Virus record (IMG/VR): IMGVR_UViG_3300022188_000015
Coordinates: 1-52,841 of that record
Strand: one strand, 5' to 3'
Length of the DNA stretch: 52,841 nt
From: a virus
The position numbers and the translations under genes are program-made. Shown one piece after another: positions 17,297-47,360 of the stretch; within the stretch, counting starts at the first letter, position 1, and each line of letters starts with the position of its first letter. The notes under the pieces are model-generated. The model was not told the origin of the DNA and did not search any database. It worked only from the letters and a program-made list of their open reading frames with translations.

Positions 17297-17312
17297 ATTT
17301 ACTAAAATCTTC

Positions 17313-17762
17313 TTACCTCCTTTCGGTTAGAGATACTTCATAAGCTTTTTTACCATGCCTTTCTAAATGATGTTTTCTGCACAACCAAGTCACTTTTAAT
17401 GGCTTATTATAATCTTCATGATGAGCCTCAACAAATGGGCTGCCACAAATTTCACAAACGCCCCTCTTTAATTTCCCATCTCTTATTGCGTTATTCGTGA
17501 TAATATGTGCTCTATATTTCTCTACATTCTTTTTTCTTCTTCTCCTTTGGTATTCAATAGCTTTCTGCCTTCTTTCTAGCTTCCTAGAGCGTTCCCTTTC
17601 ATATCCTGCATAATATGCTCGTCTTTTTTGGTAATTTTGTTTTACATCCTGTTTCGTACATTCCTTGCATTTATTGAGATGTCCATCCCCCATCTTTGGA
17701 TGCTTATAAAATTCTGTAATAGGTTTTTCTTGCCCGCATTTAAAACAAACCTTTATCTTCAT
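17313..17762 (-). CDS. HNH endonuclease (149 aa)
   Basis: The C-terminus has CEICGSPFVEAHHEDYNKPL then VTWLCRKHHLERHG, a full HNH ββα-metal motif (H-H, N, H-H with a structural CxxC). The N-terminus has a second zinc site (CFKCGQEK and CKECTK) and a long basic linker. This is the size of a homing-type or DNA-repair HNH nuclease. It lies two genes before the Tas-like gene; a stand-alone HNH near a nuclease-less Tas is worth noting, though coincidence is possible. Follows SSB. Confidence 0.85.
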   Translation of the reverse strand: MKIKVCFKCGQEKPITEFYKHPKMGDGHLNKCKECTKQDVKQNYQKRRAYYAGYERERSRKLERRQKAIEYQRRRRKKNVEKYRAHIITNNAIRDGKLKRGVCEICGSPFVEAHHEDYNKPLKVTWLCRKHHLERHGKKAYEVSLTERR

Positions 17763-17780
17763 TTCTATCTAACCCTCCGA

Positions 17781-18167
17781 TCAAAAAGGTATTTCCGAGT
17801 CATCGTCATATTCATCACCTCCTTCAGCAGCGGTCGGCTGCTCTTGCTTTCGCTGATACACTGGCTTGCTCACCTGATACGCTGTGAGTTCCCAACTTTC
17901 CCGTCCTTGACCTTCCTTGTCCGTCCACTTACGCGATCGGTACGGCCCCTCAACCTGGATAGCATCGCCTTTTTTGAAATTATCCGCCACCGCTTCTGCC
18001 AGATCACCCCATACCACCACTCTGTGCCACTGTGTCTGTCGGTTCTCTTTTTTGCCGTATGCCTCGGCAAGGGAAAACGTACAAACCGCTGTGCCGTTTG
18101 GGGTGTAGCGCAAATTAGGGTCTTGACCGAGGTGGCCGGATAGTATGCAGTTATTTTTATTGGGCAT
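17781..18167 (-). CDS. ssb: Single-stranded DNA-binding protein (128 aa)
   Basis: OB-fold SSB: MPNKNNCILSGHLGQDPNLRYT, then QTQWHRVVVWGDLAEAVADNF and KKGDAIQVEGPYRSRKWTD. The acidic disordered tail ends in DDDSEIPF, the SSB interaction tip. AGGGAGG precedes ATG at 18167. Coats single strands during replication and recombination and recruits partners through its tip. Sits between the loader and HNH genes. Confidence 0.95.
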   Translation of the reverse strand: MPNKNNCILSGHLGQDPNLRYTPNGTAVCTFSLAEAYGKKENRQTQWHRVVVWGDLAEAVADNFKKGDAIQVEGPYRSRKWTDKEGQGRESWELTAYQVSKPVYQRKQEQPTAAEGGDEYDDDSEIPF

Positions 18168-18178
18168 TATTTACCTCC

Positions 18179-18760
18179 CTAAAACGGAATTTCACTTTCA
18201 TCTATGAGTCCCCATTCCTTTCTCACTTGTCCGGCAATCTTTTCTTTCGCCACAATAGCTTGTAGATCCCTAAATCGCTGTGCTATCTGTTCATCAGTGA
18301 GACCCGTATAACATTGTCTACATTGCCATCGGCCGGCTTCGTAGATACATAGCGCTATTTTTCCGCATTTTTGGCATCGAATATTCGGCTCAATCCTAGG
18401 TGAGCGTTCTATTTCCATCAGGTCCGGCTTGATTTTCGGTCTCGGGATCGACAAAGGCATCTTGGCTCTACAGTATTTGCATTCCCCGTCAATCAGTAGG
18501 CTTACATGAGCACCGCATTTAGGGCAGGTAAACCGGTCTCGTAAATTGGTTACGTCCAGGAATTTTTTGAGATCCGCCGGTTTCGGGAAATACTCCAGCT
18601 CGTCTATAGCTTTATAACCTGCTTTGCGCACTTCATCGTCACTATATTTGCGTAATGCTTGATAATACGCCTCTGTCATCACTGCTGAATCAGTGTTCTT
18701 TCTAGGCCAGATGCTCAGAAAAAGCTCAATCATGCTTTTAATAATCTTCTTGCTCGCCAT
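18179..18760 (-). CDS. Helicase-loader-like zinc-ribbon replication protein (193 aa)
   Basis: The N-terminus (ALRKYSDDEVRKAGYKAI, then FPKPADLKKF) resembles phage replicative helicase loaders of the lambda P / DnaC-support group. Two zinc ribbons follow (CPKCGAH...CKYCRAK and CQKCGK...CRQCYTG). The last residues are DESEIPF, matching the tip of the adjacent SSB. ATG at 18760 follows CCGGAGG. The gene overlaps the end of the initiator gene. Confidence 0.6.
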   Translation of the reverse strand: MASKKIIKSMIELFLSIWPRKNTDSAVMTEAYYQALRKYSDDEVRKAGYKAIDELEYFPKPADLKKFLDVTNLRDRFTCPKCGAHVSLLIDGECKYCRAKMPLSIPRPKIKPDLMEIERSPRIEPNIRCQKCGKIALCIYEAGRWQCRQCYTGLTDEQIAQRFRDLQAIVAKEKIAGQVRKEWGLIDESEIPF

Positions 18761-19526
18761 CTTCTTCAACCTCCGGAAAAAGGAATATGTTTTTTTTGAC
18801 ATCGTTTTGAGGGATCTCAATCTCGTCTTCCCACCTACCTTGATTTAACCAAGTAGTTGGATGAGGAATAAACCGCCCATTTTCCCGTGTCCACGCCTCT
18901 GAACGTTTTTGTTTCTCAATAATTTGGATTAACTCATCTAAGGGAGGCAATTCTTTCTTTACTCTTTTCCAGCTACGAAAAGCTGCTTTTTTAGCCTTTT
19001 TAACAGGATAAGCATTCCAAAACTTCTCAAAATCTTGCGGGTAAGTGGAAGATTTTTTGTTACCATTTTGGGTAACAGGCGCACATATATTACTGTCTTT
19101 TGTATTATTGTCTTTTGTATTATTGTCTTTTGTGGGTACCTTTTTTGGTAACAACGCTTTACCATTTTTGGTAACACTCGTTACCATTTTTGGTAATGTT
19201 ACCTTTTTTGGTAATACCTTCCAAGACTCAAAATCCTTATTGATTTCGTATACATGCGGCCCTTTGTTACCATTTTTGGTAATACGTATTACCTTTTTTG
19301 ATAACAACTCATTGAGCGCTCGAACAACATGTGGTTTAACAATTCCAGTCATTTCAACAAATTGGCTAAGAGAGATTGCATCAGCTTTCTTGTTATAGCC
19401 ATATGTTTTGCGGATTATAACATCAAGACACTGCCTCTGTTCGCCAGGTAAACGATACCTGATTAGAGCATCAAAAAGCTTATTTGCTATTTTTACATAA
19501 CCATTTTCAATTTGAGGCGAGGCCAT
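18738..19526 (-). CDS. Replication initiator, lambda O-like (262 aa)
   Basis: The N-terminal winged-helix (MASPQIENGYVKIANKLFDA, then GEQRQCLDVIIRKTYGYNKK, LSQFVEMTGIVKPHVVRALNEL) is the phage replication protein O family that binds origin iterons. The middle (about residues 85-160) is low-complexity and encoded by the iterons at 19059-19305. The C-terminus (FEKFWNAYPVKKAKKAAF) matches the domain that meets helicase loaders. A loader-like gene follows. The start is ATG 19526; ribosome site weak. Confidence 0.85.
   Translation of the reverse strand: MASPQIENGYVKIANKLFDALIRYRLPGEQRQCLDVIIRKTYGYNKKADAISLSQFVEMTGIVKPHVVRALNELLSKKVIRITKNGNKGPHVYEINKDFESWKVLPKKVTLPKMVTSVTKNGKALLPKKVPTKDNNTKDNNTKDSNICAPVTQNGNKKSSTYPQDFEKFWNAYPVKKAKKAAFRSWKRVKKELPPLDELIQIIEKQKRSEAWTRENGRFIPHPTTWLNQGRWEDEIEIPQNDVKKNIFLFPEVEEDGEQEDY
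19059..19305. other. Candidate replication origin: seven iterons inside the initiator gene
   Basis: Seven near-copies of GTTACC[A/T]TTTTTGGTAAY at 19059-19076, 19136-19152, 19158-19175, 19180-19197, 19198-19215, 19266-19283 and 19288-19305. Each is an imperfect palindrome (TTACC...GGTAA). Spacing in clusters is about 18-23 bp, near two helical turns. A further TGTCTTTTGTATTAT repeat (three 15-bp units, 19094-19136) sits between. Lambda's O gene carries ori iterons in the same place, so this is the origin by analogy. Confidence 0.8.
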
Positions 19527-19584
19527 TCTTGTCACGCACTTGTTTAAGAGTTAACTTTTGCATTGGGCAGCATCCTAGAAAGAA

Positions 19585-19667
19585 AAACCCCAGAGCGGCC
19601 TAATCGCCACGGAGTAAGGTGGGATTCTAGTCACGGCTTGTTATAGCCTACTAGATCTCTGGGGTTT
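19585..19667 (-). ncRNA. Structured RNA / terminator with three-way junction
   Basis: AAACCCCAGAG (19585-19595) pairs with CTCTGGGGTTT (19657-19667), an 11-bp closing stem. Between, on the minus strand, CTAGT-GGCT...AGCC-ACTAG forms a nested hairpin and CCAC...GTGG another, so a three-way junction is possible. A T-run follows in the minus direction. It sits between the zinc-finger gene and the initiator. It may be an attenuator or a small RNA; no known riboswitch class recognised. Confidence 0.6.
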
Positions 19668-19726
19668 AGCTTTTAGGCGGTTTATCAAATTCCGACCTCC
19701 GCAACAATTAGGCTGCTTTCACTATA

Positions 19727-20428
19727 TCATTTTTCCTCATTTTTGTCAACCCCAACAATGCCGTCCGCCTCAAGCCCCTCCACTATGTAGGCAAGGGCCT
19801 GCATGTCGGGGCTTCTAAAGGATCGCCTAGCTGCCTTTTCTAGCCTTTCTCTGAGCTGTAGCTTTTCGCAAATAGCTTTATCGAATACAAGCTTTACCTT
19901 GCCATTCCTGCGCCTACGTGCAGGTTTTTTGATTGCGCCACCACTTTCCCTTTGCTGGTAGCTTTTCGCCACACGCTTGCCCAGGCACTCAGGGCAGCAA
20001 TTTCTTACCGTTATAGCGCCTCTGACGTACGGCTCGAATTCTTTTCCGCAATCCTGGCATATACTTACTTCTTTTTTCTCATTCATTTCTCTAATTTTCC
20101 TTCCTATCTCTTTGTTTTTATTATAATACCATTGGGCATAATGGCGCTTGCACATACCCTTGACCTTGGCTGCTTCATTGCAGCCGTCCACCTTGCAGAC
20201 GCCTAGCGGCTTGCTAGGCTTAGTTCCCTGCAGGCTTGCTATCTTCGCTTGCCACTCAGTGCAATTTTCGCACTCTCGTGGCATGACAGGGACCGAGACA
20301 GATAGGTTTAGCGTTTCGTCAAACCTTGGCCGTTTCCGCAACGCCTCGCATTGTTGTGGTGATACTCGGCCAAGGGCACACTGGAAGGTATTGGCTTCGA
20401 GCCATTGGTCAGCCTGTTCTTTCTTCAT
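19727..20428 (-). CDS. Zinc-finger protein of the early leftward operon (233 aa)
   Basis: Several cysteine clusters: CENCTEW, CKVDGCNEAAKVKGMCKRHYAQW (a C-C-C-H type zinc unit), then CQDCGKEF and CCPECLGK. A basic segment (KKPARRRRNGKVK) follows, then a helical C-terminus. Start ATG 20428 is 5-6 bases after TTAGGAG. Second gene of the repressor operon. Probably nucleic-acid binding; specific role unknown. Confidence 0.7.
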   Translation of the reverse strand: MKKEQADQWLEANTFQCALGRVSPQQCEALRKRPRFDETLNLSVSVPVMPRECENCTEWQAKIASLQGTKPSKPLGVCKVDGCNEAAKVKGMCKRHYAQWYYNKNKEIGRKIREMNEKKEVSICQDCGKEFEPYVRGAITVRNCCPECLGKRVAKSYQQRESGGAIKKPARRRRNGKVKLVFDKAICEKLQLRERLEKAARRSFRSPDMQALAYIVEGLEADGIVGVDKNEEK

Positions 20429-20436
20429 TTGCACTC

Positions 20437-20631
20437 CTAAACCAAAAGATCTTTAGGGTCCAGATCAAGGGCCTTGGCAATAAGATTAACCGTCTTCAAG
20501 CTCACTCTATCAGCCCGCTTGTAATAAGCGTAGATCGCCGTGCGTGGCTTGTTCATGGCTTTTGCCAAGTCCTCTTTTGTCCAACCCAACCTCTTTAACT
20601 CTTTTTCGATTTTTGCCTTATTCAACTTCAT
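20437..20631 (-). CDS. XRE-family repressor (64 aa), probably leaderless
   Basis: A single helix-turn-helix (MKLNKAKIEKELKRLGWT, KEDLAKAMNKPRTAIYAYYKR, VSLKTVNLIAKALDLDP) of the XRE type. The promoter TATAAT ends 7 bases before ATG 20631, so transcription should start at the ATG, as in lambda cI from PRM. Its position, divergent from the early promoter, suggests it controls the genetic switch. It is only one domain, without a dimerisation C-terminus. Confidence 0.85.
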   Translation of the reverse strand: MKLNKAKIEKELKRLGWTKEDLAKAMNKPRTAIYAYYKRADRVSLKTVNLIAKALDLDPKDLLV

Positions 20632-20638
20632 GGGGCGC

Positions 20639-20667
20639 ATTATACTTACTTTTCGCTTGTCCGTCAA
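20639..20667 (-). promoter_or_regulatory. Repressor promoter (consensus, leftward)
   Basis: Minus strand TTGACG (20667-20662), 17-base spacer, TATAAT (20644-20639). Seven bases then lead to ATG 20631. Confidence 0.85.
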
Positions 20668-20743
20668 GCAAATTCGACTATCAGCTAAGTTATTGATATT
20701 CTTAGTATGAGCAAAAAAGTGACAAGCCCGTGTCTTTTTTTAG

Positions 20744-20772
20744 TTGACACCGCTCCGCCCTTATGCTATGCT
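20744..20772 (+). promoter_or_regulatory. Early rightward promoter
   Basis: TTGACA (20744-20749), 17-base spacer, TATGCT (20767-20772). Transcription would start near 20780 and run through a roughly 470-base structured leader to the first clear gene at 21255. The leader holds GGGAGGTGAT (20881-20890) with a possible 29-codon GTG frame at 20886-20975, and a 9-codon frame at 21151-21180 after AAAGGAGG. Confidence 0.8.
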
Positions 20773-20979
20773 CCCCCCAAACTCTGGCCCATGCGTGATC
20801 GGGTGCCGGTTCAAAAAAGACGGTATGGGAATGACAGGCAGGACACGGTGGGCCGGATGGCAAGTTTTAGGTTCTTAGAAGGGAGGTGATACCCGTTCCA
20901 AATCGTTCAGATTGGAAATATGAGTTGTTTTGGGTGGTTGGTTGGGTGATGCGGAGGGATGGAAAAGGTCTTTGAAATT

Positions 20980-21103
20980 GCTGGCAGCGGACTGGTGGGA
21001 TGGCACCGACAGTCATAGGGAACAAACCTTCCATGGCCGGAAACTCGGAAATGAGTAGCCGGCTATCATCAAACGGTAGCGGGTTCGATTCCCGCCTGCC
21101 AGC
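20980..21103 (+). ncRNA. tRNA-like structured RNA in the early leader
   Basis: GCTGGCAG (20980-20987) pairs with CTGCCAGC (21096-21103) as an acceptor-like stem. Inside is GACTG...CAGTC with GGTG/CACC (D-arm-like), GGAA/TTCC (small hairpin), GCCGG...CCGGC with ACTC/GAGT (long variable-arm-like), and a canonical T-arm GCGGG-TTCGATT-CCCGC (21079-21095). No valid anticodon loop is evident and the total is 124 nt, so it is not a normal tRNA; it may be a mimic or a decayed tRNA. Confidence 0.45.
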
Positions 21104-31900: not shown

Positions 31901-32077
31901 ATGAATTTTGAACTTTTTACTGACTTTAATATTTCACATAGTCCTCAATATTTTTATGTCAGAGGCGCAATTTGGGGGATTGTTTTTACTACTTGTTTTT
32001 ACAAATTTTTCTTGCCATGGTTAAAGAAAAAGATATTTGCATGGAAAAAGTATAGACAAATCCTAGATCGGTCATAA
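31901..32077 (+). CDS. Small membrane protein (58 aa)
   Basis: AAAGGAGA leads to ATG 31901. A hydrophobic stretch (AIWGIVFTTCFYKFFLPW) is followed by a basic tail (LKKKIFAWKKYRQ). Last early gene before the bidirectional terminator. Confidence 0.6.
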   Translation: MNFELFTDFNISHSPQYFYVRGAIWGIVFTTCFYKFFLPWLKKKIFAWKKYRQILDRS

Positions 32078-37802: not shown

Positions 37803-39374
37803 CTACTCATAAGGTGTCCACCTGTTCTTTTTCCATTTTCCTATACCCCAGGGCGCACTTGTCCATCCGTGCTGTCCGCCCCATTTAGCCCTAAAATCAG
37901 TGTTGCGCTCATAGCACCCGATGTCAGGGTTGGTTCCGTATCTTTGTCTGTTCCCTGCCAAGTCTTGCCAGTCGCTGTCATGAATAGACAACTTCGTGCC
38001 TGCGTCGATGCAGGGGGAGTTGCGGGAGAGGTGGTAGGTAGAAGTGAGGAGAGGGTTAGATGTAAAACTGTGTGTATCTTGATTTTCAGTCGATTGATAA
38101 GACGCAAACTCAGACATTGAATAAGCATTACCTTTAAACCAAATAAAGTTATTAGTATTTTGACTGCGATACCAATCGTTATAATCAGAATACAAATCAG
38201 TAATTCGATTTCCTGGGTCATAAACCATCAATTCCCAACAACCTGACGTATCGGAGGGCATATCAGCATAAACAATATTATTTTCAACATAAATATGATC
38301 ACAAGCTAATTCTCCATCATCTGCACAAGCAATAACAATTGCTCCTCGACTATGTGTTGAGTCTTCAGCATCAATACCGTAAATAGTATTGTTCACAAAA
38401 TAGATATTAGTTGCTGTAGTACATTCTGTACAACCTCCTGTGCTGTTTCCGAGTTTCAATACACCTGCCAAAGAAGGCTGATCTTCATAGAAAATACTGT
38501 TATAGACAAGGTTATATGCTACATAATTGTCTTTGCAGTTTGTCCCTACTTGAATAGCCCTGGCACTACCGTTGTAGAAGACATTACGTTGAATTATTAC
38601 ATCTTCAGCATTGTAGGATGACACAATAGGATTTGGCTCAGCGTTTCCACAAGTATCAAAATTATTGTTTTCGATAACAACGTGTTTTATCGTTCGTGAA
38701 TACAGAGTGCCACCAGCCAATGCTATAACATGTCCGTCTCCATTGCTAGTTGTGTTGTCACAACGAAGAAATCTGTTGTTTCTAATATATGAAATGTCTA
38801 CATCGTTAGTATTGCAGTAACCACTGCCATCATGGTTGAACAGTATAACATGCTGGGCACTTTGAAGATCATGAAAGTAATTACCTTCAATTATACAATT
38901 GTTTCCATCCCATCCAATAACCCACTTCATTGATGTGCCAGAAACGTTATTGTAAAACTCACAGTTTTTTACAACAAAGTTATCAGCACTATATGACCTG
39001 ATCCCATATTCGGAGAAACCAGTAATTCCAATGCTCTGGATAGTTATTCCATCGTGTCCATCGGAATTATCTATGCACGTTGAATTTCCATTGGCGTCGA
39101 TTACTCCCTGATTCCCAGGATAGTCACCTCTAATAATTACATTGTCGGAGCCAATAGTTAGCTGCTCTCCAACATGTGTACCAAGAACCCACAGTGTGTC
39201 TCCAGCCTGCACTCCACCCGCACCCCAGACAATATTAGAAGATCCAACCCACGGACTATCTTCAGAGCCATCACCGTTTATCCCTGTAGCCGCACAATAC
39301 CAATCTGCTGCCCATCCCACCACCGCAAACAACACCATTACCAAGAAAACTGCTGTAAAGAAAAACTTCCTCAT
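37803..39374 (-). CDS. Beta-helix protein with signal peptide (523 aa)
   Basis: A clear N-terminal signal peptide (MRKFFFTAVFLVMVLFAVVG, then WAADWYCA with an A-x-A-like cut). The body is a parallel beta-helix with many NN[TR]F-like turns (NNRFLRCDN, ENNNFDTCGN) and GI-rich coils, close to pectate-lyase-like or polysaccharide-active spike folds. Signal peptides are unusual for virion proteins. It could be an exported enzyme or spike. Confidence 0.7.
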   Translation of the reverse strand: MRKFFFTAVFLVMVLFAVVGWAADWYCAATGINGDGSEDSPWVGSSNIVWGAGGVQAGDTLWVLGTHVGEQLTIGSDNVIIRGDYPGNQGVIDANGNSTCIDNSDGHDGITIQSIGITGFSEYGIRSYSADNFVVKNCEFYNNVSGTSMKWVIGWDGNNCIIEGNYFHDLQSAQHVILFNHDGSGYCNTNDVDISYIRNNRFLRCDNTTSNGDGHVIALAGGTLYSRTIKHVVIENNNFDTCGNAEPNPIVSSYNAEDVIIQRNVFYNGSARAIQVGTNCKDNYVAYNLVYNSIFYEDQPSLAGVLKLGNSTGGCTECTTATNIYFVNNTIYGIDAEDSTHSRGAIVIACADDGELACDHIYVENNIVYADMPSDTSGCWELMVYDPGNRITDLYSDYNDWYRSQNTNNFIWFKGNAYSMSEFASYQSTENQDTHSFTSNPLLTSTYHLSRNSPCIDAGTKLSIHDSDWQDLAGNRQRYGTNPDIGCYERNTDFRAKWGGQHGWTSAPWGIGKWKKNRWTPYE

Positions 39375-40196: not shown

Positions 40197-43100
40197 TCAC
40201 TCTTTACCCCCTTTCTTTTGTTTGGATCTGTAATACCTGATTTTAGCTATGCCTTTCGCATGAGGCAAAAACTTTTTCAGTTCTTGTTCGTTCATTTCTT
40301 TGAGCAGTGCGACTTGAATGTCAGCCGGAAGGCCTGCGAAAGCCCGCACATCAGAGCTAAGACGCAAGCTCTTTATAAACGTGGTTATGTTAGCCTTGAC
40401 TTGACTAGGTTTTGCAGCTAAGAACACGTCTTTATCAAATGCTTCTTTCCATGTCTCGTCTGATATTTTGCCAGTAGTGAGCCATTCAACCCGCATTTTG
40501 CGCTTTATCCTCGACCGCTCTGCCTCGTCTCTGGTCATGCGCTTATCTTTATACTCAGAGTAATATTTGAATATCTTTGACTGAAGAGGTGTAAGTCTTG
40601 CATAAGCAGGGGCCTTGGTAAAACCTATCTCGGACAGCAATAAGCTCTTTGCCCAGCCCATTGTTTCTGCGCCCCTTTTGGCAGACGACAGTGAAATAGG
40701 CGCAGCTTCCCCAGCTAGATACTCAAAGAACTGCTTGGTCTGAGTAAGTATCGGTGCATGAGGATCTCGTATATCTGTGCCATAAAAATCCTTGTTAGAC
40801 CATAGCCTCAAGATAGGCGCAATCATAGGATTGGCTTTGTTCCTGAACATATGAAGCATGCCAGTTGCAGGGCCTTCGGTCTTGATATGTTGCGCTATGG
40901 CCCCAAATTCCCTTGTGTAATACGGGGTGTTGAGCCTCGTCGGTGTTCCATCAGGTTCTTGATCGCCTGTCCTTGGATAAATGTAGTCGATCAGCTTTTG
41001 TGGCATAGAGCCTGTCAATGCCCAGGTAAGCAATCCGCCCAGAAGCAGCGATTGGATAGTGTAGTCCAGGACGAATACCATTCTACCTGTTATTTCTGGC
41101 TTACCTTCTTTCTTGGCAACCTTCTTGGCAAGTTCCTTGAAAAACCTGGCTGTATCAACTGCCGCCCCGCCGTACTCTCTCACAAACCCTAACTGCCAGC
41201 CCATAGACAGCATCGAGCCAATGCCCACGTCCTTCAGTATCGGTTTCCAGAACAGTGTCTTGTATGTCATTTCGCCAAACTGGTTATCTATGGACTTGCG
41301 TATCTTGGTAAACTCTTTCAATCTCTCGTTCGGCTTATCAGCAAGCTCGGGCCTTCTTGCCATCAAGTCTCGTACCCGCTTGAGATATGCCACTCTCTTC
41401 AATGCAGGGATATAATACTCAAATAGCCAGCTACCTGATAGCTCTACTACTCTTCTAACGCCATGTCCTAGAATGCCAGCAACATTCTTGCTAGCAAGAG
41501 CTTTGTCAAATGCTTCTTTAGCTTCCACCTTCCATTCATGAGGCATTTGCGTTGTAAAGCCGCCTTCAAGGATATACTGCACTGCTTGTCTATCAGCAGG
41601 TGAAAGCTCAGAAAGAGGCTTATCCAGCAGCTTGCCGAGGCGTAAGCCCTCTTTGACTTCCTTGATCTGTGTAAGTCCTGTGCTTACTTTGGCAAGCTCT
41701 TTTATAGCTTCGCCCCAGGATTTACCGCCTTCAAGAGCGTCAAGAATTATCCCTGTCCTGACAGCAGGCATCATGATTGTGCCAATGTGAGTAGCATGGA
41801 ATAAGCTCATGCCCAGCTTGATAGGGATAAACATATTCTTTGCTCGCATGAGCGTCCTGTAGCTCATACCAGCAGGCGTATCTTTTACCCACAGCGATTT
41901 AGGGCCTTCTAGCTTAAGCCCCGCATTTTCCATAAGAGGCACTATCTCTTTCTCCACGGCGTAGGCCTTGCCGTTAGGGGCGTCAATTACTTTCTTACCA
42001 GCAACGTCAGTCCCTTTCTCATATGGCTTTATATAGCCGTTTTTAATCAGGTTTTTGAGATATACCCGTTTGCCCGCATCACTCATTTTTTCGAGCTTTT
42101 CGGCACGGGCTTTACTGACCATATAGGTTTTGCCGTCTGGCATTTTGACAATAGTATCAAATTCTTTGGTAAGCTTAGTGCCTTTTTTATACGGCTCGGC
42201 CAGGCCATTTTCTACAAGCCAATCCATAAACTTCTGGCGTGTAATGGCTCTTAACCCCGAATTTATCCTGGCAATTACCATTTCTTCGGGGTTCGTGGTC
42301 TTTAGCTCTAACCCCAGCTCAAGCCCTTGCCTGATAGTGTCAAGTATTCTGCTACGGGTAAACGGGTCTTTACCCATTGTTTCTCTGAATTGCCTGAATA
42401 CTCTAGCTGCCTTATCAGGGTCTTTCCACAGGTGTACCCAGTAGTCTTTGATGTAATTTAGCTCTATACCTGCCTTTTTCTCTGCTTCGTATATCTTGTT
42501 GTACAGATCACGGTGTTCCGCCTTGATAGCTTGCAAGGTCTCGTAGACTTTCTTGTTGCCCCCTGCAAGTTCCATAAGGGCCTTGTTGTCGCCTTCCTCA
42601 AAGCTGATGATATACTTCAGTCTTGCCGATTCAGGCAGCTTGTCCCACCATAGCTTTCTCTCGTACAGGGCGTTCTTGATCACGTTCACCGCATGAAGCT
42701 CTTTAGCAACCAATTCGCTGGCCTTGGCTTCGGCTTCCTTGCCTTTCTCGTGAAGCAGCTCGGGGGCAAAAGCTTCTAGCAGTGCATTCTTGGTCTTGGC
42801 AAGAAAATCCTTGGCCTTGCTGTCCTTCACTTTTTCCATGAATGGCTTGATAGACTCAGGGGCTTCGGGTTCTTTTTCGGTTTCCTTTATGACCTCAGCG
42901 GCTTCCTTTAGCTGCTCGGTATCGGCAGCTTTGCCGAGGGCAAACCTTTTTTCACCTTCTACTGGTGAGCCATATTTTCTGTTTACCCCTGCTCTCAGCA
43001 TCCCTTTGATCTCATTTAAGGTGAAATTACCAGAATATCCTAGCTTCCTTGCAAACGCTTTTACCGCAAACACCAGCCTTTGCCAGATCCTCTTAGGCAG

Positions 43101-46100
43101 ACTGTCATCAGCTATCTGCTTGGCTATCCATTCGTCCACTGCCTGCCGTCTCTGCTCAGGCTTGGTAACATCCAGCTTGTAGTCCTTGGCGATAGGCAAA
43201 ATGTCGTCTTTGTGCTTGTTCCACAGGGTGTCAAGCGTCTGATCATACAGCTTGGAATCCAGAGCTTTCCTCAATCCTGCATGGCCTATCACTTCCTCGG
43301 TAAGGGTCTTCACCACGTCCTTATGCGAAGCAAGGTTTTCGGCTACAAGATAGACTTTGCCCTTGTAGAAAACGCCCTTGATAGGCTCTGGCCTCTGGAC
43401 CTCTTTAGGTAGATCGGATTGCTTCTCAACTACGGTGATCCCCGGGGTCTCTTTCCACTTAGCAGAAGCTTTCTTGACCATAAGGTCAACGAGGGGCTTG
43501 GTGAGGGGCTTCTCAGGGCGTTCACCTAGTGAGTATTGTTTGATGCCTGTTGGCTTTTTTGTAAGTTTGTCAATTACAACTAGTCTTGATGATGCGCCCG
43601 TTTGCCTAAAAGCTTCTTTCCCTGTAAATGATTTTGAGGGTAGTTTTTCGCTTGTGCCACCAACTTTTTTTAACCATTCACGAAACGCCTTTGCTTTCTT
43701 ATCGCTACGGAAAAATGGCCCTTCACTCATAATAGCAACCAAGCGGCCATGAGGTTTAAGTAGATCATAAGCATAGCGAACATGGTCAATATCTTGCCCT
43801 TTGCTAAAAGGGGGATTCATTATAATTCGGTCGTATTGACCTTTATGCTTTAGAAAGTCGCCTTGCTCCACATCATAGCCTTTTAGCTTAAGCAAATCAT
43901 TGAGTGCACTGCTAATTTCGACCGTCTTTAGTTTAACCTTTTTATATTTTTCTTTAATGCTATCTGCTATATCACCTTTACCAGCAGAGGGCTCAAGAAC
44001 CGACATGCCGGGCTTTATTTCAGCGATATTAAGCATTTTTTCAATAATAGGCTTAGGTGTAGGAAAGAAGTCTACCCCTACGTTTTTACCAACCAACTCT
44101 AGTTCGGCTTTTTTAATTTTTTCAGTGCGGATTTCTTCAGGCGTTTTTTTCTTTGACTTCCCAAGAGCTAAAAGATCTCTTTTTGCTTGTTGAAATTTGT
44201 TGTCATTATCAATTCCAGCTTTTACCAGTCTTTTGTTGTCCTGGACAGCGTGTAAGTTGCGAGCATTAAATTTTGGGAAATCTTGCCATCGCAACAACGC
44301 CTCTACTTGCGCCTTGTTTGTTATCCCACTTAGGCTGCTAGGTAAGATTTTGTTTTCAATAGCATCAGCTAAAGCATACAGCTTGGCTTGTATGTGCTCA
44401 AGATGTTCAGCATCTTGAGCCATACCTGCGGCAATGCGAGCACGTCTTGGGGTAAGTCTAAGTTGACTTATTGCAGGGTTGCGTTTTTCGTCAATTTGCT
44501 TTTGTAAATTATTTGCAAGTTCCCTAAATCTTGCAACCTTTTTTAGGTCTGTTTTTTTAGGTTTAATAGGTTTGCTTTTCTTCTCTTTTATCTTTGTTTC
44601 CTTTTTAATCCGCTCTTTGCCCTTCACCTCCACATCAGGAAAATTCCTCTTAAACTCCTCACTTCCATACTCTCCATAATCCTTGGCATGGAGCTTATTG
44701 TATTGTTCAGGGGTGAGCTTGTTTTCTTTGAGGGCACGGGAAATAAACTCTTTGCGCATATTTTCAGGACTAGGAGCTATCTTTTCAAGCAAATCAATTG
44801 CCGCCTTCTTCGCTTTGGTTTGCCTGCCTTTTTTTAAATCTAGCTTGGCTTGCTGTATTTCTTCTAGTGTCCACTCAATTTTATTTCGATAATGTGAAGA
44901 TTCATGGAACAATTTGTCTAATATTGCTCGCTTGGCAGGGACATCTCTAACAGGGAACAATCTTTTTCTTGCCTTCCAGTATTCTGCTTCAAATTCTCCC
45001 CTCGTCATCTCCCAAGGCTGTTTGGCTTCAGCTTGCTTGGGTGTGGGCTTTTGTGGTTCAGTTTTAGGTTGCTTTGATTGGACTGCTTCCTTTTTAGGTG
45101 CTTGTTCAGGTGTTTTTTCCAGTTGCTTCCATAGCCTATTTAGCTCAGGCATCGTCTCATTCTTCAAAAGGCCTAATATCGTCTCTTCTTCAACAGAAAG
45201 TTTTTTGTTTTTACCAAGTTTTGCTTGTAACTCATCTATAAGTTTTTGAGTTTTATTAATTCTTTTTTCTACAGTCGCTTTGTCTTTTACTTTGATTGGA
45301 ATTAAATTGCCGTATTTTTCAGAGCGAATATTGGTAGCAGAAGGATGACCAAAAACCTCCAAGGAAACAACGCTTTCCCCAGGTTTTTCTCTCCCTTCCA
45401 ATAAAGCTGTCCACTCGTTTAGCTTGTCATAGAGATGTTGAGGCACTTTCTGTTTATTAGCCTTCCTAGTGGCTATCTGGTCTTTTACTATCTGTATTTT
45501 GTCTTGAAGGCTAATTTCAGATTTGGCTGGCCCCGCCTCTTTTTCAACGGCACCGGGTGCTGCCTCCATACGTGGTAGAGCAGTCTCCTTCGGCTTCCCA
45601 ATCCACCCCTCATCCACCTTTACAGGCTCATGTGTATCAAGCAAACCTCGCTTTCTAAGCTGCAATACCAGCGCCCCTTTGATCTTGAAGGGCTTGCCTG
45701 ATTTAGTGGTTACCTCTTCAATCGTCTCTGCCTCTTGTCCGCCTCTACGAATTCCCTGCACACCTCTACCGGTGGGCATTCCTTGCCCTTCTTTTCCAGG
45801 AACCTCCTGAACTTCGGGTTTAGTCATGCCCTCATGAATCGGGCCTGCTTCTCGCTCTTGCTCGGCAAAACGGATCACCTCCCTCGGCCCCATAGTGCGG
45901 GGCGTCCAAATAGTTGGCTCTTCAGGTACGGCAGGCTGAACCTTTTCTTCTACACCTGGCTTACCACCTCCCCTACGTTTAGCTCTTTCAAGAAACGTCT
46001 CTCTAGGCGTAATAAGCCTTGGTTCTTCCCGCTCAGGTGCAGCAGGGGAAACATTTATAACCTCACCCCTCGGTAATCTGCCAAACTTGGCAACCTGTTC

Positions 46101-47360
46101 AGCTTCCTGCTCTGCCTTTGCAATGGTCTCTCTAGGCACGAACTGCGGCTTGATAGGCTGCTCGTAAACAGGCTTTACCCTGGTGGCCTGTCTTTCAGGG
46201 TAAGCCGCTTTCTCTTCTGCCCATGCGCTAGGTTGCGCCTGTCTTTCTGCTTCCCATTGTGCTAAATCAACCCCTCTCTTTTCTGCCATCTGCTGAAGCT
46301 GCTCGTCTGGCCTTGCCTCTTCAGGCTCAGGCTCAACCGCTGCCTGCTTCGCCTTTTCTACAGTAACCGCTACCTTCTCTTTGGTATCGTCCGAGACCTT
46401 GGGATTCTCAAAGAAATCGTCCAATACCGCTTTTACCTGCTCAACGTTGCCCTTCTTAATAGCCTCGTTGAGCTTTTTGCGAATCCTTGCAATTTCAAGC
46501 TTCTCTTTGCCTTTACCACTTAGCTTGCTGATGACAGGCATTATCTGGAAAGCGGCAAACATGCCAAGGCTATCGGCTATGCTTTGCTTCAACTCGTCCT
46601 CAGTAGGGGCTCGCCCCTGTTTGGCCGCCTCATACACAGTTTGCCCTACGCCTACCCCTGTAAACCTAGCAGCGTCAGCGGCTATCTTTTTATACACAGG
46701 CCGTAAAGCTCGTTTCATAGCTGCTTCTGGCTGCAATGCCATGCTAGGGCCTTCATATAGCCTTGCATACACCCCTTGCTCTACAGCGCCTTTTACCGCC
46801 CCAGGAACACCTTCTTCTCTAGCGCCCTTGACTGCCCCCTGCGCCATCGAGCCAACAACGAAGTCGCTCATATCGCCCAGCCATTTGGCAATCCTGGTGG
46901 AAGCAGTAGCAGCCTTTACCGTACTGCCTATGGCTAGAGCTTCGGGTATCTTTTCAAGCATATACCCAGCGCTCTGACTAAGCCTGTTCAAAAAATTCTT
47001 AGCTGCGCTTTTCGTCTCAGGTAATTCCAAGGATTGCGCTGCTGCTTCATAGCTCTTTGCCATCCTCTCTGTAAGAGGCTTTAGAGGCGGCACAAGGGTC
47101 CCTACATCTTCGGCAAGCGAACCATAGGCATGGTACAAGCCTTTAGCCAGGCCCTTGACAGCCGACTCAATATAACCAGGCTCTTGCTGCTGTTCCTGTG
47201 GCGGGGCTTGCTCTTGCACAAGCTTGTCCATTACAGGCGCAATGGCAGGCGCTACCACCTTTTTCCATTGCTCAGGATAAAGCTGTTTGAACCTTTCTAA
47301 ACGTTCTTGCAGAGAGGTATTTTTATCGCCATATATGCGAGGGTCTAGTAAGAGAGGCAT
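40197..47360 (-). CDS. Giant polyvalent virion protein (2387 aa) with methyltransferase and degenerate zincin domains
   Basis: Layout: N-terminal helical region with Ala/Gly-rich segments (about residues 60-290), a Pro/Glu/Gln-rich linker (330-560), helical linkers, a SAM methyltransferase at about 1115-1290 (MSVLEPSAGKGDIAD near 1123 and NPPFSKG near 1182), a zincin-like segment with EEVIGHAGLR near 1356 where HExxGH would be expected, and a long helical C-terminus of the large-polyvalent-protein (LPD38-like) type. These proteins are packaged and injected with the DNA; the methyltransferase may protect the entering genome. Confidence 0.75.
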   Translation of the reverse strand: MPLLLDPRIYGDKNTSLQERLERFKQLYPEQWKKVVAPAIAPVMDKLVQEQAPPQEQQQEPGYIESAVKGLAKGLYHAYGSLAEDVGTLVPPLKPLTERMAKSYEAAAQSLELPETKSAAKNFLNRLSQSAGYMLEKIPEALAIGSTVKAATASTRIAKWLGDMSDFVVGSMAQGAVKGAREEGVPGAVKGAVEQGVYARLYEGPSMALQPEAAMKRALRPVYKKIAADAARFTGVGVGQTVYEAAKQGRAPTEDELKQSIADSLGMFAAFQIMPVISKLSGKGKEKLEIARIRKKLNEAIKKGNVEQVKAVLDDFFENPKVSDDTKEKVAVTVEKAKQAAVEPEPEEARPDEQLQQMAEKRGVDLAQWEAERQAQPSAWAEEKAAYPERQATRVKPVYEQPIKPQFVPRETIAKAEQEAEQVAKFGRLPRGEVINVSPAAPEREEPRLITPRETFLERAKRRGGGKPGVEEKVQPAVPEEPTIWTPRTMGPREVIRFAEQEREAGPIHEGMTKPEVQEVPGKEGQGMPTGRGVQGIRRGGQEAETIEEVTTKSGKPFKIKGALVLQLRKRGLLDTHEPVKVDEGWIGKPKETALPRMEAAPGAVEKEAGPAKSEISLQDKIQIVKDQIATRKANKQKVPQHLYDKLNEWTALLEGREKPGESVVSLEVFGHPSATNIRSEKYGNLIPIKVKDKATVEKRINKTQKLIDELQAKLGKNKKLSVEEETILGLLKNETMPELNRLWKQLEKTPEQAPKKEAVQSKQPKTEPQKPTPKQAEAKQPWEMTRGEFEAEYWKARKRLFPVRDVPAKRAILDKLFHESSHYRNKIEWTLEEIQQAKLDLKKGRQTKAKKAAIDLLEKIAPSPENMRKEFISRALKENKLTPEQYNKLHAKDYGEYGSEEFKRNFPDVEVKGKERIKKETKIKEKKSKPIKPKKTDLKKVARFRELANNLQKQIDEKRNPAISQLRLTPRRARIAAGMAQDAEHLEHIQAKLYALADAIENKILPSSLSGITNKAQVEALLRWQDFPKFNARNLHAVQDNKRLVKAGIDNDNKFQQAKRDLLALGKSKKKTPEEIRTEKIKKAELELVGKNVGVDFFPTPKPIIEKMLNIAEIKPGMSVLEPSAGKGDIADSIKEKYKKVKLKTVEISSALNDLLKLKGYDVEQGDFLKHKGQYDRIIMNPPFSKGQDIDHVRYAYDLLKPHGRLVAIMSEGPFFRSDKKAKAFREWLKKVGGTSEKLPSKSFTGKEAFRQTGASSRLVVIDKLTKKPTGIKQYSLGERPEKPLTKPLVDLMVKKASAKWKETPGITVVEKQSDLPKEVQRPEPIKGVFYKGKVYLVAENLASHKDVVKTLTEEVIGHAGLRKALDSKLYDQTLDTLWNKHKDDILPIAKDYKLDVTKPEQRRQAVDEWIAKQIADDSLPKRIWQRLVFAVKAFARKLGYSGNFTLNEIKGMLRAGVNRKYGSPVEGEKRFALGKAADTEQLKEAAEVIKETEKEPEAPESIKPFMEKVKDSKAKDFLAKTKNALLEAFAPELLHEKGKEAEAKASELVAKELHAVNVIKNALYERKLWWDKLPESARLKYIISFEEGDNKALMELAGGNKKVYETLQAIKAEHRDLYNKIYEAEKKAGIELNYIKDYWVHLWKDPDKAARVFRQFRETMGKDPFTRSRILDTIRQGLELGLELKTTNPEEMVIARINSGLRAITRQKFMDWLVENGLAEPYKKGTKLTKEFDTIVKMPDGKTYMVSKARAEKLEKMSDAGKRVYLKNLIKNGYIKPYEKGTDVAGKKVIDAPNGKAYAVEKEIVPLMENAGLKLEGPKSLWVKDTPAGMSYRTLMRAKNMFIPIKLGMSLFHATHIGTIMMPAVRTGIILDALEGGKSWGEAIKELAKVSTGLTQIKEVKEGLRLGKLLDKPLSELSPADRQAVQYILEGGFTTQMPHEWKVEAKEAFDKALASKNVAGILGHGVRRVVELSGSWLFEYYIPALKRVAYLKRVRDLMARRPELADKPNERLKEFTKIRKSIDNQFGEMTYKTLFWKPILKDVGIGSMLSMGWQLGFVREYGGAAVDTARFFKELAKKVAKKEGKPEITGRMVFVLDYTIQSLLLGGLLTWALTGSMPQKLIDYIYPRTGDQEPDGTPTRLNTPYYTREFGAIAQHIKTEGPATGMLHMFRNKANPMIAPILRLWSNKDFYGTDIRDPHAPILTQTKQFFEYLAGEAAPISLSSAKRGAETMGWAKSLLLSEIGFTKAPAYARLTPLQSKIFKYYSEYKDKRMTRDEAERSRIKRKMRVEWLTTGKISDETWKEAFDKDVFLAAKPSQVKANITTFIKSLRLSSDVRAFAGLPADIQVALLKEMNEQELKKFLPHAKGIAKIRYYRSKQKKGGKE

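Follow-up and report, generated by a model that had tools for sequence, protein, structure and literature searches.

In bacteriophage lambda (NC_001416), four iterons lie inside the gene of the replication initiator O as inverted repeats of the word TCCCTC with an A-tract centre, at steps of about 20-24-23 bp, and AT-rich 15-mers (ACAAAAGA) follow just past the last of them. In passages of PMC6022878 and PMC7466680 the AT-rich tract is named as the region that melts, and according to the latter passage O binds this tract as a single strand. O is believed to contact P through its C-terminal region, as stated in part of PMC6022878. The same paper lists ti12 (39122 C to A), r95 (deletion 39123-39134) and r96 (deletion 39139-39153) as mutations of the lambda origin; r95 and r96 prophages are described there as defective in replication initiation, and O proteins with the ti12, r95 and r96 changes as able to complement in trans.

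Related plans are found in other phages. Phage phi80 (NC_021190) has four annotated sites for its initiator gp15 inside an O-like gene, with 21-bp steps, a word read as TTCCCG in an ambiguous register, and His at residue 69 (numbering of the protein studied here); the motif ACNAAAGA was not found there. P22 (gene 18) and BTP1, SEN22 and mEp043, and HK97 carry four O-gene iterons (words TTTACC, GTCACC and TTAGCC) at steps of 20-24-23 bp, followed by ACNAAAGA; they have a basic residue at position 69 together with C at base 5 of the half-site, and a DnaB-type helicase or primase-helicase gene comes next. Among plasmids, the origin of RK2 is not known to lie inside its initiator gene, and its initiator, TrfA, belongs to a different family from the O proteins. 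At RK2 oriV the iterons adjoin AT-rich tandem repeats, and TrfA binds one single strand of the 13-mers in this unwinding element (passages of PMC4081077).

Here we describe a locus in the window, i.e., the whole IMG/VR virus record IMGVR_UViG_3300022188_000015 of 52,841 bases. It shares with lambda the initiator family, inverted repeats with an A-tract centre inside the O gene, ACAAAAGA 15-mers just past an iteron, and an adjacent downstream gene in the position of the helicase loader. It differs from lambda in its word (GTTACC), in having seven iterons and not four, and in the steps along the O gene (22, 68, 18, 22, 23 and 76 bp); moreover, its first two iterons fall in the coding sequence of the DNA-binding domain, one iteron stands past the AT-rich repeats, and the downstream gene is not recognisably P. 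With the P22, SEN22 and HK97 groups the locus has in common a 23-bp step before the AT-rich motif and a basic residue at position 69 with C at base 5; however, a zinc-ribbon protein gene occupies the place of their helicase or primase-helicase gene. With phi80 it shares His at residue 69, and with RK2 the juxtaposition of iterons and AT-rich repeats.

The initiator gene and its neighbourhood

Family profile searches matched the O gene of the window to Phage_rep_O (PF04492, E 2e-25) over its first 105 residues and to TIGR01610 (E 1e-18; 67.2 bits against a cut-off of 45.5), and PHROG replication initiation families were matched as well. PF04492 was the sole Pfam family for this protein at E up to 0.001, with no match to Rep_3 or RepA_N, the families of iteron plasmid initiators. 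The coordinates of the gene, its repeats and its neighbours are collected in Table 1. Downstream of O, a zinc-ribbon gene is followed by the gene of a single-stranded DNA-binding protein; family searches with the zinc-ribbon protein gave no confident match, either to P or to any other loader family. The genes upstream match zinc ribbon/HNH-like and Cro/C1-type HTH families; cII, which precedes O in the lambdoid gene order cro-cII-O-P, is not among the matches listed. Just upstream of the O gene, an intergenic 17-bp inverted repeat occupies positions 19579-19673, its arms being 88% complementary and 61 nt apart. Elsewhere in the record, a single open reading frame of 2387 aa extends over 40197-47360 on the minus strand.

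Close named relatives were not detected: distant blastn of positions 17300-21000 against 50,697 phage records matched an endonuclease stretch only, and all relatives found by tblastn against plasmids were below 60% identity. Cumulative GC skew turns at 20790 (~20.8 kb) and at 32055, which is where the gene strand switches, so that the skew is uninformative and provides no independent evidence of an origin.

Table 1. Positions of the initiator gene, its iterons and adjoining features in the window
Feature	Position	Strand	Position in O gene (nt)	Remarks
O-type replication initiator gene	19535..18738	minus		265 aa from GTG; ATG at codon 4 (19526)
His69 codon	19329..19331	minus		third residue of predicted recognition helix; covaries with half-site base 5
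Iteron a	19288..19305		231-248	within DNA-binding-domain coding sequence
Iteron b	19266..19283		253-270	within wing coding sequence
Iteron c	19198..19215		321-338	68 bp from b
Iteron d	19180..19197		339-356	18 bp from c
Iteron e	19158..19175		361-378	22 bp from d
Iteron f	19135..19152		384-401	23 bp from e; adjoins AT-rich repeats
Three tandem 15-mers ACAAAAGACARTAAT	19089..19133	minus		between iterons f and g; putative DNA unwinding element
Iteron g	19059..19076		460-477	past AT-rich repeats, 76 bp from f
C-terminal 31 residues of O	18741..18833	minus		kept in contig L018 at 68%
Zinc-ribbon protein, 193 aa	18179..18760	minus		overlaps stop of O; candidate helicase loader (from its position only)
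Single-stranded DNA-binding protein	17781..18167	minus		PF00436, E 1e-27

Seven iterons inside the O gene

The 18-bp inverted repeat reads GTTACC-A/T-TTTTT-GGTAAY on the plus strand. Its seven copies differ from GTTACCWTTTTTGGTAAY by 0-2 mismatches, three of them being exact, and all lie inside the O gene; no further copy exists elsewhere in the 52.8-kb record. Seven matches compare with 0.18 expected, and none of 100 shuffles reached this number, which bears out the claim of the sequence-only reading that seven 18-bp iterons occupy an O-like gene. Chance as their source was rejected on this excess and on the 0 loci obtained with the reversed pattern.

The other claims of that reading held in part. 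The proposed spacing of about two helical turns applies to half of the steps and fails for the rest. The iterons had been assigned to the low-complexity middle of the gene; two of them (19266-19305) instead fall outside the linker, where the wing and the last part of the recognition helix are encoded. Nor do the repeats force one repetitive peptide: they are read in two phases in the window, three copies giving VTKNGN-like and four LPKKVT-like peptides, and the KDNN peptide that had been attributed to the iterons is encoded by the separate 15-bp tandem repeat. One DNA word carried across two reading phases indicates that the DNA is conserved, not the peptide alone.

Repeats kept as DNA among relatives

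A DNA-first scan of public collections looked for motif pairs and used no protein. It returned 28 distinct loci, i.e., 23 viral contigs with a relaxed pattern (among them the 3 found with a strict pattern) and 5 prokaryotic genome contigs; the motif read backwards gave 0 viral contigs. An O N-domain was detectable in 23 of the 28 loci, and in each of these 23 at least two pattern matches lay inside that gene. Contigs labelled delta proteobacterium and Ignavibacteriales are among the prokaryotic genome matches that have an O gene. No O domain was detectable in the remaining five loci (L025, L028, L033, L037 and L048). The gene at L037:2697-3320 encodes a non-O protein and contains two GTTACC-type palindromes in one phase, which may reflect another initiator or chance.

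A protein-first set comprised 123 loci from viral contigs, including lambda and the window; an N-domain match was obtained for 117 of them, and removal of redundancy left 90. Of the two peptide patterns used to gather this set, one is itself encoded by iterons, and the set is therefore biased. A fresh set was gathered by N-domain patterns only; its 155 loci contributed 82 new non-redundant genes. The 80 near-identical copies returned by the lambda O query were left out of every count. In the repeat test, inverted hexamers recurring within a gene were scored, whatever their word, against 20 synonymous-codon shuffles. All 20 shuffles were outscored by 75 of the 90 O genes in the protein-first set and by 63 of the 82 in the fresh set, while 34 of the 172 non-redundant genes (15/90 and 19/82) failed.

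Among the 138 genes that passed, 123 carry iterons in at least two reading phases. The words vary (GTTACC, GTTATC, GTTGCC, GTCATC, GTTCCC, GTTGTC and more) and the steps are kept: the series 68-18-22-23 recurs without deviation in 17 genes, which use five different words and whose N-domains have a median identity of 59%. Selection at the peptide level alone was rejected as an explanation, given the several reading phases and the disappearance of the repeats in synonymous shuffles.

A shared AT-rich element after the iterons

The 15-bp AT-rich repeat ACAAAAGA recurs from the window phage to lambda at ~10 nt beyond the last iteron. AT content is highest within the 40 nt that follow the last iteron, with excesses of 0.10 and 0.13; among the 27 genes whose GC content exceeds 50%, the excesses are 0.23 and 0.21. 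Base counts at fixed offsets, made without use of the motif, place ACAAAAGA at offset 10-17 from the centre of the last iteron. We found ACNAAAGA after at least two iterons in 106 of the 138 genes; it stands 9.5-10.5 nt from the centre of the nearest (last) iteron in 70 of these, and the last iteron step is 22-24 in 80 of them. This motif is found in each of the three reading phases. For exact ACAAAAGA, 215 occurrences compare with 54 (maximum 64) once the genes have been shuffled synonymously.

In lambda the motif lies at 39121 and again at 39136, directly after iteron 4. Comparison of coordinates (39122 and 39121) places ti12 at base 2 of the motif; r95 deletes the greater part of the first motif unit and r96 that of the second, in lambda coordinates. 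The relevant part of PMC6022878 puts ti12 in the iteron-4 interval, whereas the coordinates of the annotated record put it just outside. The motif is not named in the passages of PMC6022878 and PMC7466680 drawn on here. Neither ACAAAAGA as a shared element nor the residue-base rule for O proteins described below was found in the titles and abstract openings of the literature, a search that covers older lambda work thinly and is not proof of absence.

Predicted fold and a residue that covaries with base 5

An AlphaFold2 model of the O protein of the window, built from 62 aligned sequences, predicts with confidence a winged-helix N-domain (block means mostly above 90 across residues 21-100), with helices at 56-63 and 67-79, the latter being the recognition helix, and wing strands at 83-86 and 95-98. 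Its fold matches in the PDB are generic winged helices at Z 8.5-10.0 and do not point to a family. They include 4pql and 4pt7, titled 'DNA binding protein' and 'initiator', which we take to be plasmid initiators and which resemble the model by fold only (Z ~9, rmsd 7.6-7.8). Sequence search retrieved no solved structure, either for lambda O or for the window protein and its sequence relatives.

Setting the recognition helix beside the iteron word first suggested a rule: a basic residue at window position 69 goes with C at half-site base 5, and any other residue with T. The codon of residue 69 lies outside all iterons, and the link between residue and base is consequently not trivial. Genes that failed the repeat test were dropped before the covariation counts. 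Mutual information between residue 69 and base 5 gave a z of 20, against 5.2 for the next-best N-domain column, and the first 59 even-centre words were distributed as basic/C 36, basic/T 0, other/C 3 and other/T 20.

The rule was fixed before the fresh scans, for even-centre words only; the odd-centre words are a later addition. The clean fresh set, freed of redundancy, gave basic/C 20, basic/T 1, other/C 4 and other/T 20 (Fisher 7.5e-8), with 11 genes left out whose base 5 is neither C nor T. In the same order, even-centre words alone, as pre-stated, gave 10/1/2/12 (p 2e-4), and non-redundant odd-centre words 10/0/2/8. L247, which shared sequence with the training set, was removed from the fresh test and retained in the tree test and in the 138-gene counts. 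The fresh exceptions are L235, L254, L236 and a family with the word GTCTCT (L360, L358, L355 and L364), whose Asn at 69 breaks the rule in the register used; this register may be off by one. Genes with Ser, Gln, Glu, Val or Asp at 69 have G at base 5 in 7 of 8 cases, the words being few and their register uncertain.

Twelve records of named phages were compared with the rule, the word being unreadable in Acba_1 and Jinkies. The rule holds in SEN22, mEp043, BPM-V3, BTP1, P22, HK97 and Paraburkholderia phage IPK. With the register used it does not hold in lambda and ES18 (Arg at 69, word TCCCTC), and phi80 agrees with it in one of two registers.

Residue 69 might merely mark lineages, without reading base 5, even if the origin lies here. 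On a tree of 121 genes built without column 69, base 5 changes 29 times. Of 29 branch-disjoint pairs, 25 agree with the rule, 1 opposes it and 3 show no change of residue (the commonest outcome of 200 random pairings). Close pairs such as L012 and L019, 90% identical, differ in the predicted direction. The lineage-marker explanation gains from the misfit of lambda and ES18 and from the small number of pairs left when only well-supported branches are used, namely 8 independent pairs, of which ~6.7 agree and 0 oppose (median p 0.016). Against it stand the lead of column 69 over every other column, the repeated switches and the agreement of most pairs, and we consider it unlikely.

Apparent exchange of the initiator with its repeats

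Contig L018, from a sister phage, encodes a zinc-ribbon protein 90% identical to that of the window, and from there into the SSB gene the two share 85% DNA identity. Its initiator-like gene differs from the O gene of the window and carries in-gene repeats of its own, only the last 31 residues of O being kept. Within L018:314-1099 we noted four direct repeats of GGAACAACCAA at 11-bp steps (682, 693, 704 and 715), rotating through the frames and followed by an AT-rich repeat. As the initiator has been swapped while the tail and the loader-like gene are kept, initiator and origin appear to move together and the tail to stay with the putative loader.

A putative origin of the lambda type

An O-family protein, a fixed-step array of iterons conserved as DNA and AT-rich tandem repeats that keep a constant distance from the array are features of the sequence itself. 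The array is very probably the replication origin of the phage, built on the lambda plan inside its own initiator gene. The earlier suggestion of a lambda-like origin is thus supported by the placement in the initiator gene, the symmetry of the iterons, the adjoining AT-rich repeats and the comparison with lambda, P22, HK97 and phi80, all at the level of sequence. It had also called the iteron sequence unrelated to that of lambda; this is correct for the word and misses the likeness in the inverted-repeat plan with its A-tract centre, the 23-bp last step of P22/HK97 type and the ACAAAAGA that comes after.

In the mechanism that we propose, each iteron would be bound by a dimer of the O winged-helix domain, to which the covariation of residue and base lends indirect support, and His69, near the beginning of the recognition helix, might contact the G opposite base 5 of the half-site GTTA[C]C, the exact contact being a guess. 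Wrapping of the iteron array would strain and melt the ACAAAAGA 15-mers, and the C-terminal tail of O together with the overlapping zinc-ribbon protein may then recruit the host replicative helicase.

The iterons could alternatively be operators through which O represses its own operon, with the origin elsewhere. O binds DNA and has its sites within its own gene, and when bound it could block transcription; furthermore, the residue-base rule demonstrates recognition and not function. However, all sites are well inside the gene, the AT-rich 15-mers keep a fixed distance from the array, and the matching lambda elements are needed in cis for replication according to the cited part of PMC6022878, so that we regard operators as improbable. 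Hairpins in the O transcript, controlling translation or binding a protein, are more doubtful still: every palindrome could fold in RNA besides acting in DNA, but its half-site varies together with a residue in the recognition helix of the predicted winged-helix domain, and near-helical-turn spacing and a fixed AT-rich neighbour suit DNA. That the repeats are a low-complexity Lys-rich linker or a product of slippage with no role as DNA, which the poor conservation of the linker as protein would allow, is hardly credible in view of the reading phases (two in the window, at least two in most relatives) and the same spacing with different words, and as sole cause it is already refuted by the synonymous shuffles.

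Beyond the origin assignment, we favour, with moderate confidence, a broader reading in which O-type origins form an interchangeable and mutually specific set. The word would be read mainly by residue 69, with His, Lys or Arg specifying C, Asn, Ala or Thr specifying T, and possibly Ser, Gln, Glu or Val specifying G. The constant ACAAAAGA, repeated every 15 bp and placed roughly a helical turn beyond the last iteron, would be recognised as a single strand by the initiator or by the helicase-loading step, and ti12, r95 and r96 would be lesions of ACAAAAGA.

The specificity of lambda-type replication has so far been based on a few laboratory phages. The O genes collected here offer a natural series of more than 100 initiator-origin pairs, in which a one-residue rule predicts origin sequence from the protein. 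The in-gene plan of O and its origin is already known from lambda; the residue-base rule and the shared ACAAAAGA element are the parts that a specialist may not expect. The shared element is a candidate reason for the failure of the lambda AT-rich mutants despite a working O protein, and mutually specific origins, if confirmed, would provide plasmid parts without cross-talk.
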